A stretch of DNA of 64,000 bases from Nocardiaceae bacterium. Lineage in GTDB: Bacteria > Actinomycetota > Actinomycetes > Mycobacteriales > Mycobacteriaceae. How positions within the stretch are numbered: the first letter of the stretch is position 1; every line of letters begins with the position of its first letter. The notes beneath the pieces are model-generated. The model worked only from the letters and a program-made list of their open reading frames with translations. It searched no databases and was not told where the DNA came from. Below are positions 12,538 through 35,435 of this stretch, piece after piece. The position numbers and the translations under genes are program-made. The DNA lies in the NCBI GenBank assembly GCA_021372355.1, contig JAJFUQ010000214.1, positions 1 to 64,000 on the forward strand. The letters are read 5' to 3'.

Positions 12538-13887
12538 TCAGAGCCCGACGGCCATCTCCAGCTCATCGAGCGCGGAATCGATGTCGACGGTGATCTCGGC
12601 CGGCTCCGGCACGACGTCACTCGCCGCGGTGAGACCCACGCTGATGCGGTCACACTGGCTGACGCACGTGATGTTGAGGGCAAGTCCGGAAACCGGTATC
12701 GACAACGGGTGAATCTCTTCGAGCAGCGCACCGTTCCAGTACAGCGGCTCAGTCGGGCCCGGAATGTTCGAGATCACGACGTTGAATGGCGGACTGACCA
12801 ACAGATTCCGGCCGAGCATCACCATCGGCGCCAGGCCGGACAGGCCGGCCGCACTCGTGACCAGGTTCTGGGTGGCGTTGTGACTGGCGATGAAGTGCTT
12901 CCCCTCCCGCATCCGCCGACTGACGTGCAGTAAGCGCTCGCGTGCATCCGGGATGTCGGTACCAAGGCTGCACGCCAGCACGCCAACCTGGTTGCCCACC
13001 GTCGCGTCATCGGACTTCGGGCGCATCGACACCGGCACCATCGCGACGAGTGACTTGCGCGGCAACTCCCCCATCTCGATGAGGAATTCGCGCAGCCCGC
13101 CGGCACACATCGTCAGAACGACGTCATTCACTGTGCAGTCCGCGAATTTGGCGATCATGCGCAGCCTCTCCAGCGGCCACGACTTGGCGGCATAGGCGCG
13201 CTCTTCGGAAATCTCCTGGGCGAATATCGTTTTCGGTGCAGAGATCGACAGCGGACCACCGCGCGACGTGAGCGACCGCAGAGTCATGTCAGCGAGCGCG
13301 GGCGCGGGCGACACTCCCTCCTTGACGAGAGAAACGAGTGACCGAAGCGGTCCGGGGCCGCTATGCGACGGCTGTTCGTCCGGCGCCGCGTCCACCCACG
13401 GAGCGGGCATCTCCCGAATGTCCGGGTCTTCGGAGAGTCGACTCCGCAGCAGCGACAGCGCCGCAACGCCGTCGGCGACGCTGTGGTGGATCTTGGCGTA
13501 CAACGCGAACCGGTCCAGCGGCAGACCCTCGATGACGTGGATCTCCCACAATGGGCGCGAGCGGTCGAGACGCTCCGAATGAAGCTGCGCACACAGGGCC
13601 AGCAGGTCACCTTCGGCCGCGCCCGGAGGCAGTTGGTGTCGTTTGACGTGTTGATCGAAGTCGATGTCGGCATCGTGACGCCAGGTCCATGCAGCTCCGG
13701 CAAACTGCGGCTCTGCGACATTACGGAGGAAGTCGGAGACCCGCCGGTCCTCGAGTGCCCGATCAATGAGGTCGGAAGACGTTGAATCCTCCGGTGCACC
13801 GAAGATGAGAAGTCCGCCGACATGCATCGGCTGTTTGTCGGTCTCGGTCAGCAAGAACAGCGAGTCGGTCGGCGACATGAAAGCCAC
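12538..13887 (-). CDS. Wax ester synthase/diacylglycerol acyltransferase (WS/DGAT)
   Basis: 449 residues, the normal length. The catalytic HHxxxDG motif is HHSVADG at 134-140. PLWEIHVIEGL comes just before it, and NVVISNIPGP near 370 is the second family motif. The enzyme transfers an acyl group from acyl-CoA to diacylglycerol or a fatty alcohol, forming storage triacylglycerol or wax ester. N-terminal SPTDSLFLLTE is the usual family opening. A SigF-type promoter at 13977-14000 suggests stress induction. Glycerolipid versus wax specificity cannot be read from sequence. Confidence 0.94.
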   Translation of the reverse strand: MAFMSPTDSLFLLTETDKQPMHVGGLLIFGAPEDSTSSDLIDRALEDRRVSDFLRNVAEPQFAGAAWTWRHDADIDFDQHVKRHQLPPGAAEGDLLALCAQLHSERLDRSRPLWEIHVIEGLPLDRFALYAKIHHSVADGVAALSLLRSRLSEDPDIREMPAPWVDAAPDEQPSHSGPGPLRSLVSLVKEGVSPAPALADMTLRSLTSRGGPLSISAPKTIFAQEISEERAYAAKSWPLERLRMIAKFADCTVNDVVLTMCAGGLREFLIEMGELPRKSLVAMVPVSMRPKSDDATVGNQVGVLACSLGTDIPDARERLLHVSRRMREGKHFIASHNATQNLVTSAAGLSGLAPMVMLGRNLLVSPPFNVVISNIPGPTEPLYWNGALLEEIHPLSIPVSGLALNITCVSQCDRISVGLTAASDVVPEPAEITVDIDSALDELEMAVGL

Positions 13888-31272: not shown

Positions 31273-32046
31273 ATGTCGAAGTACACCGGCAGAAGTGCCG
31301 TTGTCACGGGCGGAGCGCGCGGCATCGGCGCCGCGGTCGTCCGGGCCCTGGCAAAGGAGGGCCTCGGCGTGGTCATTGCGGACATCCGAGAAGCCGAAGG
31401 CGTTCGGTTGGCCTACGAACTGGGCGGCGACGTCTCGTTCCAGCACCTCGACGTCACCATGGAACACGACTGGACTCGAGTCCTGGAGGCCGCCGAAAGC
31501 GAATACGGTCCGTTGGCGGTTCTCATCAACAACGCCGGCATTCTCGACCTGGGCGGCGTCGCGGAGGTGCACCGGCCGATCTTCCGGCACGTCCTGGACG
31601 TGAATCTGTATGGCTCGTGGCTCGGAATCCACTCCGCGGCACCGCTGCTCGCCCGGGCAGGCGGCGGCGTCATCGTCAACGTCTCGTCCACCGCCGGCCT
31701 GATGGGCTACTCGGGACTCGCGGCCTACGTGACCAGCAAGTGGGGTCTACGGGGGCTCACCAAGGCGGCGGCCTTGGACCTCGCGCCCTCGGGAATTCGG
31801 GTGTGCTCGGTGCATCCGGGCCCCATCCGCACTCCGATGACTGCCGGGCTCGACGACAGTGTCGTTGCCGGTCAACCGATTCCGCGATTCGGAGAGCCGG
31901 ACGAGGTCGCAGCGATGATCCGGTTCGTGGCGATCGAGGCGACGTATTCCACTGGCTCGGAGTTCGTGGTCGACGGCGGCGCGACCACCGGCGCCGCGAT
32001 CCTCACGACGCCTAGCGCCGCCACGGACTTCCCCGTCGGTCTCTGA
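31273..32046 (+). CDS. SDR-family dehydrogenase (FabG / 3-alpha-hydroxysteroid dehydrogenase-like)
   Basis: 257 residues from the ATG at 31273 after a GAGGAGG ribosome-binding site. Complete classical SDR: TGGARGIG at the N-terminus, NNAGIL, Ser in VNVSSTAGL, and YVTSK with the catalytic Tyr and Lys. PGPIRTPM and VDGGATTG are the usual end motifs. Probably reduces a beta-keto or oxidises a hydroxyl group. First gene of an operon with two KAS III-like proteins and a WS/DGAT, so a keto-acyl substrate made by those enzymes is a reasonable inference. Confidence 0.88.
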   Translation: MSKYTGRSAVVTGGARGIGAAVVRALAKEGLGVVIADIREAEGVRLAYELGGDVSFQHLDVTMEHDWTRVLEAAESEYGPLAVLINNAGILDLGGVAEVHRPIFRHVLDVNLYGSWLGIHSAAPLLARAGGGVIVNVSSTAGLMGYSGLAAYVTSKWGLRGLTKAAALDLAPSGIRVCSVHPGPIRTPMTAGLDDSVVAGQPIPRFGEPDEVAAMIRFVAIEATYSTGSEFVVDGGATTGAAILTTPSAATDFPVGL

Positions 32047-32083: not shown

Positions 32084-33187
32084 ATGACGAAGCAATGGCT
32101 GGTGATGGAGAGCGAGCGCAACCAGGCCCGTTCGCCCTATCGCACGAGAATCGCCGGAATCGGGCGCCACTTGCCGCCGACCCGCTTGACCACCGCGGAC
32201 CTGATGGCGTCGACGGCGCATACGACGCACGTCGACCTCGAGCGCCTCACCGGAATTCACGAGCGCCGGGTGTCCGTCGGCGACGAGGACTCGTTGAGTC
32301 TGGCGACGGCAGCGGCACTGGATTGCCTCCGGCACGCCGGGCGTGCGGGGGCCGATGTCGAGGTCGTGATCAATTGCAGCATCACCAAGTTCCGTGGCGG
32401 TTTGACCCACTGGCTGGAGCCGACCACCAGCATCGCGATCGCGGAAGCCATCGGCGCCCACGGCGCGATGACTTTCGACGTCTCGAACGCCTGCGCCGGG
32501 ATGCTGACCGGCGTGTCCATCCTCAACAATTGGATCCGTCAGGGCGTCGTCAAGAACGGCCTGGTGGTGAGCGGCGAATACATCTCGCAGGTCAGCCGCA
32601 ACGCCGCCAAGCACGTACACACGATCTTGAGCAAGGAACTCGCGTCCCTGACCGTTGGCGACGCTGGTGCAGCGATGCTCCTCGAGCGCGCCACTCCTGA
32701 CTCCGGCTCCATCACCGTGGCGGGCTTCACCACCATCGCCGATCACAGCCGCTTATGCCTCGCTTACCCGACGGGTGACGACCCGGGCGCACGGATGTTC
32801 ACGGATTCACGTGGGATCCACAAGGTCGCGATCGCGGACACCCCGATCCTGCTCGAGGAGGTCCTCGAGACCGCCGGGCTGGCGTTGCACGACATCGACC
32901 ACGTCGTCACCCACCAGACTTCAGCGCGCGCCATCCGGAAAGGCATGGCGGAATTGACCGCGAAGTTCGGCGATGCACCGGTCCATGACGCCGTCATCAC
33001 TGTCGACCGCTACGGCAACACGGCGTCCACCACGCACACCGTCGCGTTGGTCGAGGAATTCGAAGCTCACCGCATCCAGCCCGGCGAGACAGTGGCACTT
33101 GTCGCGCTCGCGTCCGGCCTCGAAATCGGTGTAGTTCTCTTCAATCCGGATAAGGAGTTGCTGGACAGCTATGGGAACGATCATTGA
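32084..33187 (+). CDS. 3-oxoacyl-ACP synthase III-like (KAS III) enzyme
   Basis: 367 residues, thiolase superfamily. The catalytic triad is complete: Cys137 in SNACAGM, His277 in THQTS and Asn312 in RYGNTAS. KAS III enzymes condense an acyl-CoA with malonyl-ACP or another acyl thioester. The length is slightly above FabH (about 320-335), nearer to the OleA/HMG synthase-like members. GAGG precedes the ATG. Its end overlaps the next gene by 17 bases, suggesting translational coupling and perhaps a complex with the KAS III-like half of that protein. Confidence 0.85.
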   Translation: MTKQWLVMESERNQARSPYRTRIAGIGRHLPPTRLTTADLMASTAHTTHVDLERLTGIHERRVSVGDEDSLSLATAAALDCLRHAGRAGADVEVVINCSITKFRGGLTHWLEPTTSIAIAEAIGAHGAMTFDVSNACAGMLTGVSILNNWIRQGVVKNGLVVSGEYISQVSRNAAKHVHTILSKELASLTVGDAGAAMLLERATPDSGSITVAGFTTIADHSRLCLAYPTGDDPGARMFTDSRGIHKVAIADTPILLEEVLETAGLALHDIDHVVTHQTSARAIRKGMAELTAKFGDAPVHDAVITVDRYGNTASTTHTVALVEEFEAHRIQPGETVALVALASGLEIGVVLFNPDKELLDSYGNDH

Positions 33188-35435
33188 GCAGGTCAGCGTT
33201 GCGAAACCCCACTGGCGCACTCCTAGCGCGCTGAGCCTCGCGGTCAGTGCCGCCCGGGATTGCCTGCGCGAAGCACACCGGGCACCCGACGATGTCGACC
33301 TCCTTGTCAACACTGGCCTTTACCGCGACCGCAACCTCGGTGAGCCTGCTCTTGCCGCGCTGATCCAAGAGGACGTCGGCGCTCATCCCGAAGATCCACA
33401 TGCGGGCTCGCACGGGACGTTCTCTTTCGACATCGGCAACGGAATATGCGGAGTTCTGACGGCCGCGCAGATCGCCGATGGATTTCTGCGGTCCGGCGCC
33501 ATACAGCGGGCACTTGTCGTGGCCAGCGACGCCGATCCGGGCTCGGGAATGAGCGACGACTTCCCGTTCGCTCCCGCGGGCGGCGCCATGCTGTGCACCT
33601 GGACTGAGCACGATCACGGGTTCGGAAAGTTCTACTGGGCGTCGAGGCCCGACAACGGTGACGCCTTTCGCGCGACCGTCGGGCTCCATGACGGCCACAA
33701 CGTCCTCCGTTTCGCCGGAAACGGCACGAAGGCCTCGGCGTATGCCGCCGTGGCTGCCGACGCGGTCGCGAAGTGCCTCGAGTCCGAGAACCTCCGCATC
33801 AATGACATCGACGTCATCGTGGCCGCGCCCGACGACCCGGATTTTCGGGCTGCTCTCGCCGACCGGATCGGTGCCCGACCGGAGTTCCTCGTTGGTGCAG
33901 GCCACAGTGCGCATACAGCGTCCCTGCTCTTCGGCATCGATTCGGTCATCGAATCCCTTACGCCCCACTCGACGGTCCTTTTCGTGGCCGCCGGCGCAGG
34001 CGTGACGGCGGGCGCAGTCCTCTATCGGACCGGGCCACTGACCGAGAAGACGCATCACGATCGAGAAGCGGCGGCGGCGGACCGTTTGTCACCGCTGGAT
34101 GCGGCGTTCCTGGAGATGGAGGATGCCGATCGGCACGTGAGCCTGGCGATCGGCGGTGTCACCATCGTTTCCGGGCCGGTGCCCGACAACGACGAGGTGA
34201 TGGAACTCCTCCCCAAGCGAATCGTGTCGATTCCGCGGTACCGCCAGCGACTGCGGTTCACCTCGCTCGATCTCGGAGCGCCCGAGTGGATCGAGGACAC
34301 GAATTTCGATTTCTCGCATCACATCCACCGCATCGCACTGCCCGCCCCGGGCGATGACGCCGCACTGTTCGACTTCGTCGCGGAGAACATGACGCATCGC
34401 CTCGACCGCGATCGGCCGCTGTGGGAGTGCTGGGTCATCGAAGGCTTGTCGAACGACCGTTGGGCGATCTTTGTCAAGCTCCACCACTGCATCGCGGACG
34501 GCATCTCGGCAGCGCATGCCTTGGCCAGCCTGTGTGACGAGGGCGAAGCCGAATCATTCGCGAATCGCATCCACCGAGACCCCACCTCGCATGCGCCACA
34601 TCTGCCCAGCCTCAATCCGCTCCGTTGGCCGGGTGAAGTGGTCCATGGGTCGCTCGGCGCAACCGCGGCGGTGTTCCGCGCGGCGACCGGGGCTGCCGAG
34701 ATCGCGACGAGCATCCTGTGGCCGTCGGCGAAGTCGACCCTGAATGGGCCGATCGCCAAGCAGCGCCGCTTCGCTGCCGCGCGAACGTCGCTCACCGACA
34801 TCGCCGAAGTGCAACGCGCATTCGGTGTGACGATCAACGATGTCGCGCTCGCCGCAATCACCGAGGCATACCGCGAATTCCTCCTGCGCCGGCACCAAGC
34901 ACCACACCCGGACATGCTGCGCACGCTGGTACCGGTGTCGATCCGTTCCACCGATGCTGCCGACGACCTCGGCAACCGCGTGTCGCTGATGATGCCGCTG
35001 CTGCCGGTCGACATCGCCGATCCGCTCGACCGGCTGAAGGCGGTGCATTCTCGCCTGCAACGCGCGAAGTCGTCAGGTCAGAGCGAGGCCGGCAGCTCCA
35101 TCCTCGACGCCACGCATTTCATCCCGTTCATGCTCACGGCACAAGCCGTTCGATTCCTCACCCACCTGCCGCAACGCGGCGTGGTCGCACTCGCGACGAA
35201 CGTGCCCGGCCCCAGCCGAACGCTGCACGTTCACGGCCGCGAAGTGATCGAAATGCTTCCGGTTCCGCCGATCGCGATGCGACTGCGAACGGGCATCGCG
35301 ATGCTCAGCTACACCGACACCCTCGGTTTCGGAATCACCGCTGACCACGACGCCGCGCCGGACGTCACCGAGTTCGCGGCCGACATCGAACGGGCGGTGG
35401 AACGTCTCGTCGCTCTCAGTCGCACGAAATCCTGA
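33171..35435 (+). CDS. Degenerate KAS III domain fused to wax ester synthase/DGAT
   Basis: 754 residues. Residues 1-290 have a KAS III/thiolase fold: FDIGNGICGVLTAAQ holds Cys93, but the histidine segment is AAPDD (219-222 region) and the asparagine segment is GHSAHTAS (244-251), so His and Asn are missing. A charged linker (about 291-303) joins a complete WS/DGAT domain beginning LSPLDAAFLEMED, with catalytic HHCIADG at 438-444 and NVPGPSRTLHV near 680. One uninterrupted frame. It probably works with the preceding complete KAS III and then esterifies the product. Confidence 0.88.
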   Translation: MGTIIEQVSVAKPHWRTPSALSLAVSAARDCLREAHRAPDDVDLLVNTGLYRDRNLGEPALAALIQEDVGAHPEDPHAGSHGTFSFDIGNGICGVLTAAQIADGFLRSGAIQRALVVASDADPGSGMSDDFPFAPAGGAMLCTWTEHDHGFGKFYWASRPDNGDAFRATVGLHDGHNVLRFAGNGTKASAYAAVAADAVAKCLESENLRINDIDVIVAAPDDPDFRAALADRIGARPEFLVGAGHSAHTASLLFGIDSVIESLTPHSTVLFVAAGAGVTAGAVLYRTGPLTEKTHHDREAAAADRLSPLDAAFLEMEDADRHVSLAIGGVTIVSGPVPDNDEVMELLPKRIVSIPRYRQRLRFTSLDLGAPEWIEDTNFDFSHHIHRIALPAPGDDAALFDFVAENMTHRLDRDRPLWECWVIEGLSNDRWAIFVKLHHCIADGISAAHALASLCDEGEAESFANRIHRDPTSHAPHLPSLNPLRWPGEVVHGSLGATAAVFRAATGAAEIATSILWPSAKSTLNGPIAKQRRFAAARTSLTDIAEVQRAFGVTINDVALAAITEAYREFLLRRHQAPHPDMLRTLVPVSIRSTDAADDLGNRVSLMMPLLPVDIADPLDRLKAVHSRLQRAKSSGQSEAGSSILDATHFIPFMLTAQAVRFLTHLPQRGVVALATNVPGPSRTLHVHGREVIEMLPVPPIAMRLRTGIAMLSYTDTLGFGITADHDAAPDVTEFAADIERAVERLVALSRTKS

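Follow-up and report, generated by a model that had tools for sequence, protein, structure and literature searches.

In the window, i.e., the whole stretch of 64,000 nucleotides analysed here from a Nocardiaceae bacterium, a KAS III-fold domain without a catalytic triad is fused to a WS/DGAT. This domain is probably the LstB-type small subunit of a heterodimeric OleA/LstAB-like enzyme, formed with the KAS III encoded at 32084 and carrying out a head-to-head condensation. For an apparently dead domain, this yields a specific catalytic prediction: Glu58 would act in the active site of the partner. LstAB-type chemistry would also be extended from natural-product clusters to a stress-type island of many nontuberculous mycobacteria and rhodococci. 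Such pairs are annotated only as 3-oxoacyl-ACP synthases, and their natural fusion, suggestive of an ester as the product, offers a handle on what they do.

The open reading frame at 33171-35435 (forward strand) is uninterrupted and encodes 754 aa (Table 1). Its WS/DGAT part (residues 306-749) is intact. The match to TIGR02946 is strong (415 bits), and WS_DGAT_cat, WS_DGAT_C and the HHxxxDG motif were all found, which places it among the WS/DGAT enzymes. The N-terminal part gave weak KAS III matches (Pfam below the cut-off; NF006829 at 54 bits). In a structure comparison of the AlphaFold model, residues 1-290 have the KAS III fold, with PqsD, FabH, BioZ and OleA at Z 30-34 (OleA at about 31), and the Foldseek matches of the fusion model are WS/DGAT and KAS III structures. 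The whole-chain model has a mean pLDDT of 73; the first domain is mostly well predicted, residues 292-324 are unreliable, and the Glu58 loop (53-59) has low confidence in the monomer model. The monomer model of the partner is poor (pLDDT 66), so no geometry was drawn from it. As for the initial annotation, which described a KAS III domain with a retained Cys ahead of an acyltransferase, the fold, the reading frame and the fusion to a WS/DGAT are all borne out, but the catalytic Cys is not.

Table 1 Features of the fusion gene and its upstream neighbours (window coordinates)
Feature	Position	Strand	Basis or remark
Short-chain dehydrogenase/reductase (SDR), ending 37 bp before the partner gene	31273-32046	+	Pfam adh_short; open from TTG 31237, ATG 31273
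LstA-like KAS III partner, 367 aa; Cys137-His277-Asn312 and Glu112-Pro113 intact	32084-33187	+	67-90% identity among close relatives
LstB-like triad-less KAS III domain, fusion residues 1-292	33171-34046	+	17 bp overlap with the partner gene
Glu58 codon, opposite OleA Glu117; proposed base in the partner active site	33342-33344	+	OleA alignment, invariance
Ile92 codon, catalytic Cys position (OleA Cys143)	33444-33446	+	FabH, OleA and family-profile alignments
Cys93 codon, residue chosen in the initial annotation, one past the nucleophile position	33447-33449	+	Alignments
Ala219 codon, catalytic His position	33825-33827	+	Alignment
Ser246-Ala247-His248 codons, at the catalytic Asn position or next to it	33906-33914	+	Alignments
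Interdomain linker, residues 293-305	34047-34085	+	Domain limits; model unreliable over 292-324
WS/DGAT domain including stop codon; HHCIADG motif at 34482-34502	34086-35435	+	Pfam/TIGR02946 matches, Foldseek

The alignments place none of the three catalytic residues in the N-terminal domain, which sets it apart from canonical FabH/KAS III enzymes. AAPDD (218-222) replaces the His-Gln motif, with Ala219 at the His position. GHSAHTAS (244-251) replaces Gly-Asn-Thr; depending on the alignment register, the Asn position corresponds to Ser246 or His248, and Asn occurs in neither. The losses of His and Asn had been recognized before, and the earlier conclusion that the domain alone would not perform decarboxylative condensation agrees with the loss of the triad. 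The claim that Cys is kept, in the form of Cys93, did not hold. The stretch FDIGNG-I92-C93-G stands, ungapped, opposite FDISAA-C-S-G of Aquifex FabH and FDVANA-C-L-A of Xanthomonas OleA, and the family profile alignment gives the same register; the nucleophile position is thus Ile92. This position is T/A/S/P in 80 close relatives and A/S/T/G/I in the 37-row family alignment, never Cys in either set.

It had further been suggested that Cys93 carries an acyl chain and hands it to the WS/DGAT domain. The residue does not vary among the 80 close relatives, and the fusion would put it near the acyltransferase. However, it lies one residue past the nucleophile position, unfused close relatives keep it equally, and it is dispensable in the wider family, where 9 of the 37 rows have Val or Thr instead. 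WS/DGAT enzymes, moreover, use acyl-CoA directly. A role of Cys93 as an acyl-holding nucleophile is therefore very improbable.

The partner gene (32084-33187) was found directly upstream of the triad-less domain in every locus examined (41/41 and 80/80), which indicates that the presence of this domain is not due to chance. The overlap between the two genes is usually 17 bp, and it is kept in most close relatives of the window's pair. The partner triad is intact in all 41 loci and in every row of the further partner alignments, i.e., the domain adjoins an LstA-type KAS III that has its own Cys, His and Asn. A comparable arrangement is known from lipstatin biosynthesis in Streptomyces toxytricini, where the adjacent KAS III-like proteins LstA and LstB are soluble only when together, and LstB E60A is inactive (PMC12141560). 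In OleA, each subunit lends its Glu117 to the opposite one (PMC7064751). Sequence alignment with OleA puts Glu58-Pro59 of the domain opposite Glu117-Pro, and both residues are invariant in the close relatives (80/80) and in the family rows (37/37). The likeness of Glu58 to LstB Glu60 comes from this OleA alignment together with the published description of LstB. Based on the OleA alignment, the operon context and the phylogeny, the domain is most likely of the LstB type.

Alternatively, the domain could be a purely structural pseudo-subunit which, as PqsB does for PqsC, shapes or stabilizes the partner site and gives no catalytic residue. PqsB, the subunit that PqsC pairs with, likewise has none of the three triad residues (PMC4807248), and the domain has a weak sequence match to PqsB (E 0.034). 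The retention of Glu-Pro in the partner, too, fits such a role; given the partner's own invariant Glu112-Pro113, the motif may also be structural. Nevertheless, Glu58 stands opposite OleA Glu117 and is constant in 80 relatives, and distant relatives of the domain occur in operons of the lst type, in which the corresponding residue, Glu60 of LstB, is required; an exclusively structural function is improbable. In a heterodimer, the partner's Glu-Pro, which does not vary within the close branch, would lie opposite the dead site. Support of the partner KAS III had already been considered in the initial annotation. The domain probably does work with this protein, but a catalytic role, lending Glu58, is favoured over a merely supporting one.

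The assignment to the LstB type is also consistent with the distribution of the pair. In the tree, the triad-less domains form one clade (100/99) and the partners another (99/97), and each splits into the same two branches, A and B, so the KAS III pair has probably travelled as a cassette. The close branch was found in Rhodococcus, Mycobacterium/Mycolicibacterium, Hoyosella, Antrihabitans and Smaragdicoccus, the nearest named genome being Smaragdicoccus niigatensis (L082; 74% identity over the domain). Distant relatives of the domain (28-39% identity) always adjoin a KAS III. Some of them, at 31-34% identity, belong to operons of the lst type, found on a Streptomyces and a Rhodococcus plasmid, and the small subunits from such operons (L080, L081) fall in the clade of the triad-less domains. 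The operons contain genes for a fatty acid CoA ligase, an epimerase/3beta-HSD, an NRPS and a formyltransferase, the same set of genes that makes up the lst cluster for lipstatin. In two further genomes (G186, G156; loci L067:8698-14094 and L068), an ORF of about 1800 aa encodes condensation-adenylation-carrier NRPS domains followed by LstA-like and LstB-like domains. It is a natural fusion of LstA-LstB to an NRPS module, and an epimerase-type gene lies downstream.

By analogy with LstAB and OleA, we infer that the two proteins form a dimer and catalyze a head-to-head reaction. The partner would take an acyl chain on Cys137. Glu58 would cross the dimer interface and form the enolate, the part played by Glu117 in OleA and probably by Glu60 in LstB, and a second acyl-CoA would be joined head to head without decarboxylation to give a 2-alkyl-3-keto acid, which may lose CO2 to form a long-chain ketone. 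The missing Cys, His and Asn would thereby be supplied by the partner protein, and not from elsewhere in the domain, the possibility that the initial annotation had raised against its own reading for His and Asn. More speculatively, the condensation product would be reduced and then esterified by the WS/DGAT domain. The SDR encoded upstream of the partner is a possible ketoreductase, as a candidate at the window locus only. As a conserved pathway partner it was rejected, since at other loci the pair seldom has a close homolog of it nearby, and the S. niigatensis locus has none; no conserved ketoreductase for an ester product was found.

A beta-lactone or olefin pathway was also considered for the close branch and rejected. 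An LstC-like protein (E <= 1e-30) is absent from 14 of the 15 branch genomes searched, including that of the window, which thus has no ligase for a lipstatin-type beta-lactone pathway. LstD-like proteins gave only distant matches outside G121, the one genome with an LstC-like protein. In G121, gene sets similar to lst-type operons occur as a separate cluster.

As for the acyltransferase, we more weakly infer that the fused WS/DGAT esterifies the reduced (hydroxy) product or taps the same acyl-CoA pool, thereby linking condensation to neutral lipid. The condensation product may plausibly be converted to an ester. Only two genomes, both of Smaragdicoccus, showed the fusion, and as their proteins share 74% (first domain) and 71% (WS/DGAT) identity, an assembly error as its source is unlikely. 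No description of a KAS III-WS/DGAT fusion was found in the titles and abstracts searched. Of 13 genomes in which the genes are unfused, 11 have a WS/DGAT with 41-56% identity to the fused domain no farther than about 30 kb from the pair (p about 3e-20 if placement were random, a value that is overstated since the island itself is clustered). Within the 80-locus set, 34 unfused loci have a WS/DGAT above 350 bits within about 6 kb. On a plasmid of Rhodococcus sp. WAY2 (L079), LstA, LstB, WS/DGAT and alcohol dehydrogenase genes follow in this order; the KAS III pair there sits between two wax ester synthase genes. The genome of the window has 22 WS/DGAT matches. Among its WS/DGAT genes, a second, standalone one lies in the window itself at 12538-13887, about 20 kb off on the opposite (-) strand, and another, in a different part of the genome (G000:C280:1505-3271), adjoins a distant match of the 3beta-HSD/epimerase type.

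The neighbourhood of the pair is a stress-type island. Universal stress protein, nitroreductase, PEP synthase, PfkB, hydrogenase and Hsp20 genes recur across loci. In group A loci (e.g., L133, L147), from many nontuberculous mycobacteria, the pair lies amid universal stress proteins, nitroreductase, kinase/AAA, PEP synthase and PfkB genes. A 20-mer DosR box had no match in the window with up to three mismatches allowed, and in relatives the regions preceding the KAS III gene contained no strong site, the best one having 14/20 matches.

This setting allows a more modest view of the acyltransferase, compatible with an LstB-type domain, in which the stress island simply contains an ordinary triacylglycerol/wax ester synthase and the fusion arose because the genes overlap, with no shared pathway. 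We give this view close to an even chance. Close WS/DGAT relatives also occur in genomes without a detected close relative of the pair (e.g., G019, G146, G051), and the island gathers many unrelated stress genes. In five Mycobacterium loci, furthermore, the ORFs of the triad-less domain and the WS/DGAT overlap in different frames, so that a small change suffices for fusion. The retention of the fusion in two genomes at the identities given above, the proximity in 11 of 13 unfused genomes and the gene row on the Rhodococcus plasmid nonetheless argue for a closer link. Tentatively, and with a somewhat less than even chance, many mycobacteria and rhodococci would combine LstAB-type head-to-head joining with a dedicated WS/DGAT, fused in Smaragdicoccus, that esterifies the reduced product. 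The products of this so far undescribed pathway, encoded in a stress island, would be branched or secondary-alcohol wax esters rather than beta-lactones or olefins.

Among the known systems, LstAB is similar in its adjacent KAS III pair, in which one subunit has Cys-His-Asn and the smaller one does not, in the conserved Glu of the small subunit, and in the occurrence of the domain's family in lst-type operons. In contrast to lipstatin biosynthesis, the genome of the window has no LstC-like ligase, neither an NRPS nor a formyltransferase lies beside the pair, and the small subunit, whose gene lies in a stress-type island, continues into a WS/DGAT. OleA of Xanthomonas campestris, which performs head-to-head condensation of acyl-CoA, shares the fold and the Glu-Pro motif, and its base is likewise proposed to come from the other subunit. 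However, OleA is a homodimer with the full triad and Glu117-Pro in each chain, whereas here the domain has Glu-Pro without a triad and the functions are divided between two proteins. PqsBC of Pseudomonas aeruginosa is a heterodimer of an active and a triad-less KAS III, a pairing that is predicted here; it differs in its substrates, octanoyl-CoA and 2-aminobenzoylacetate, and is not fused. Finally, the WS/DGAT enzymes of Marinobacter (6chj) and Acinetobacter (7nxg) have the same catalytic and C-terminal domains, with HHxxxDG intact in the fusion, to which the protein of the window adds an N-terminal LstB-like domain.
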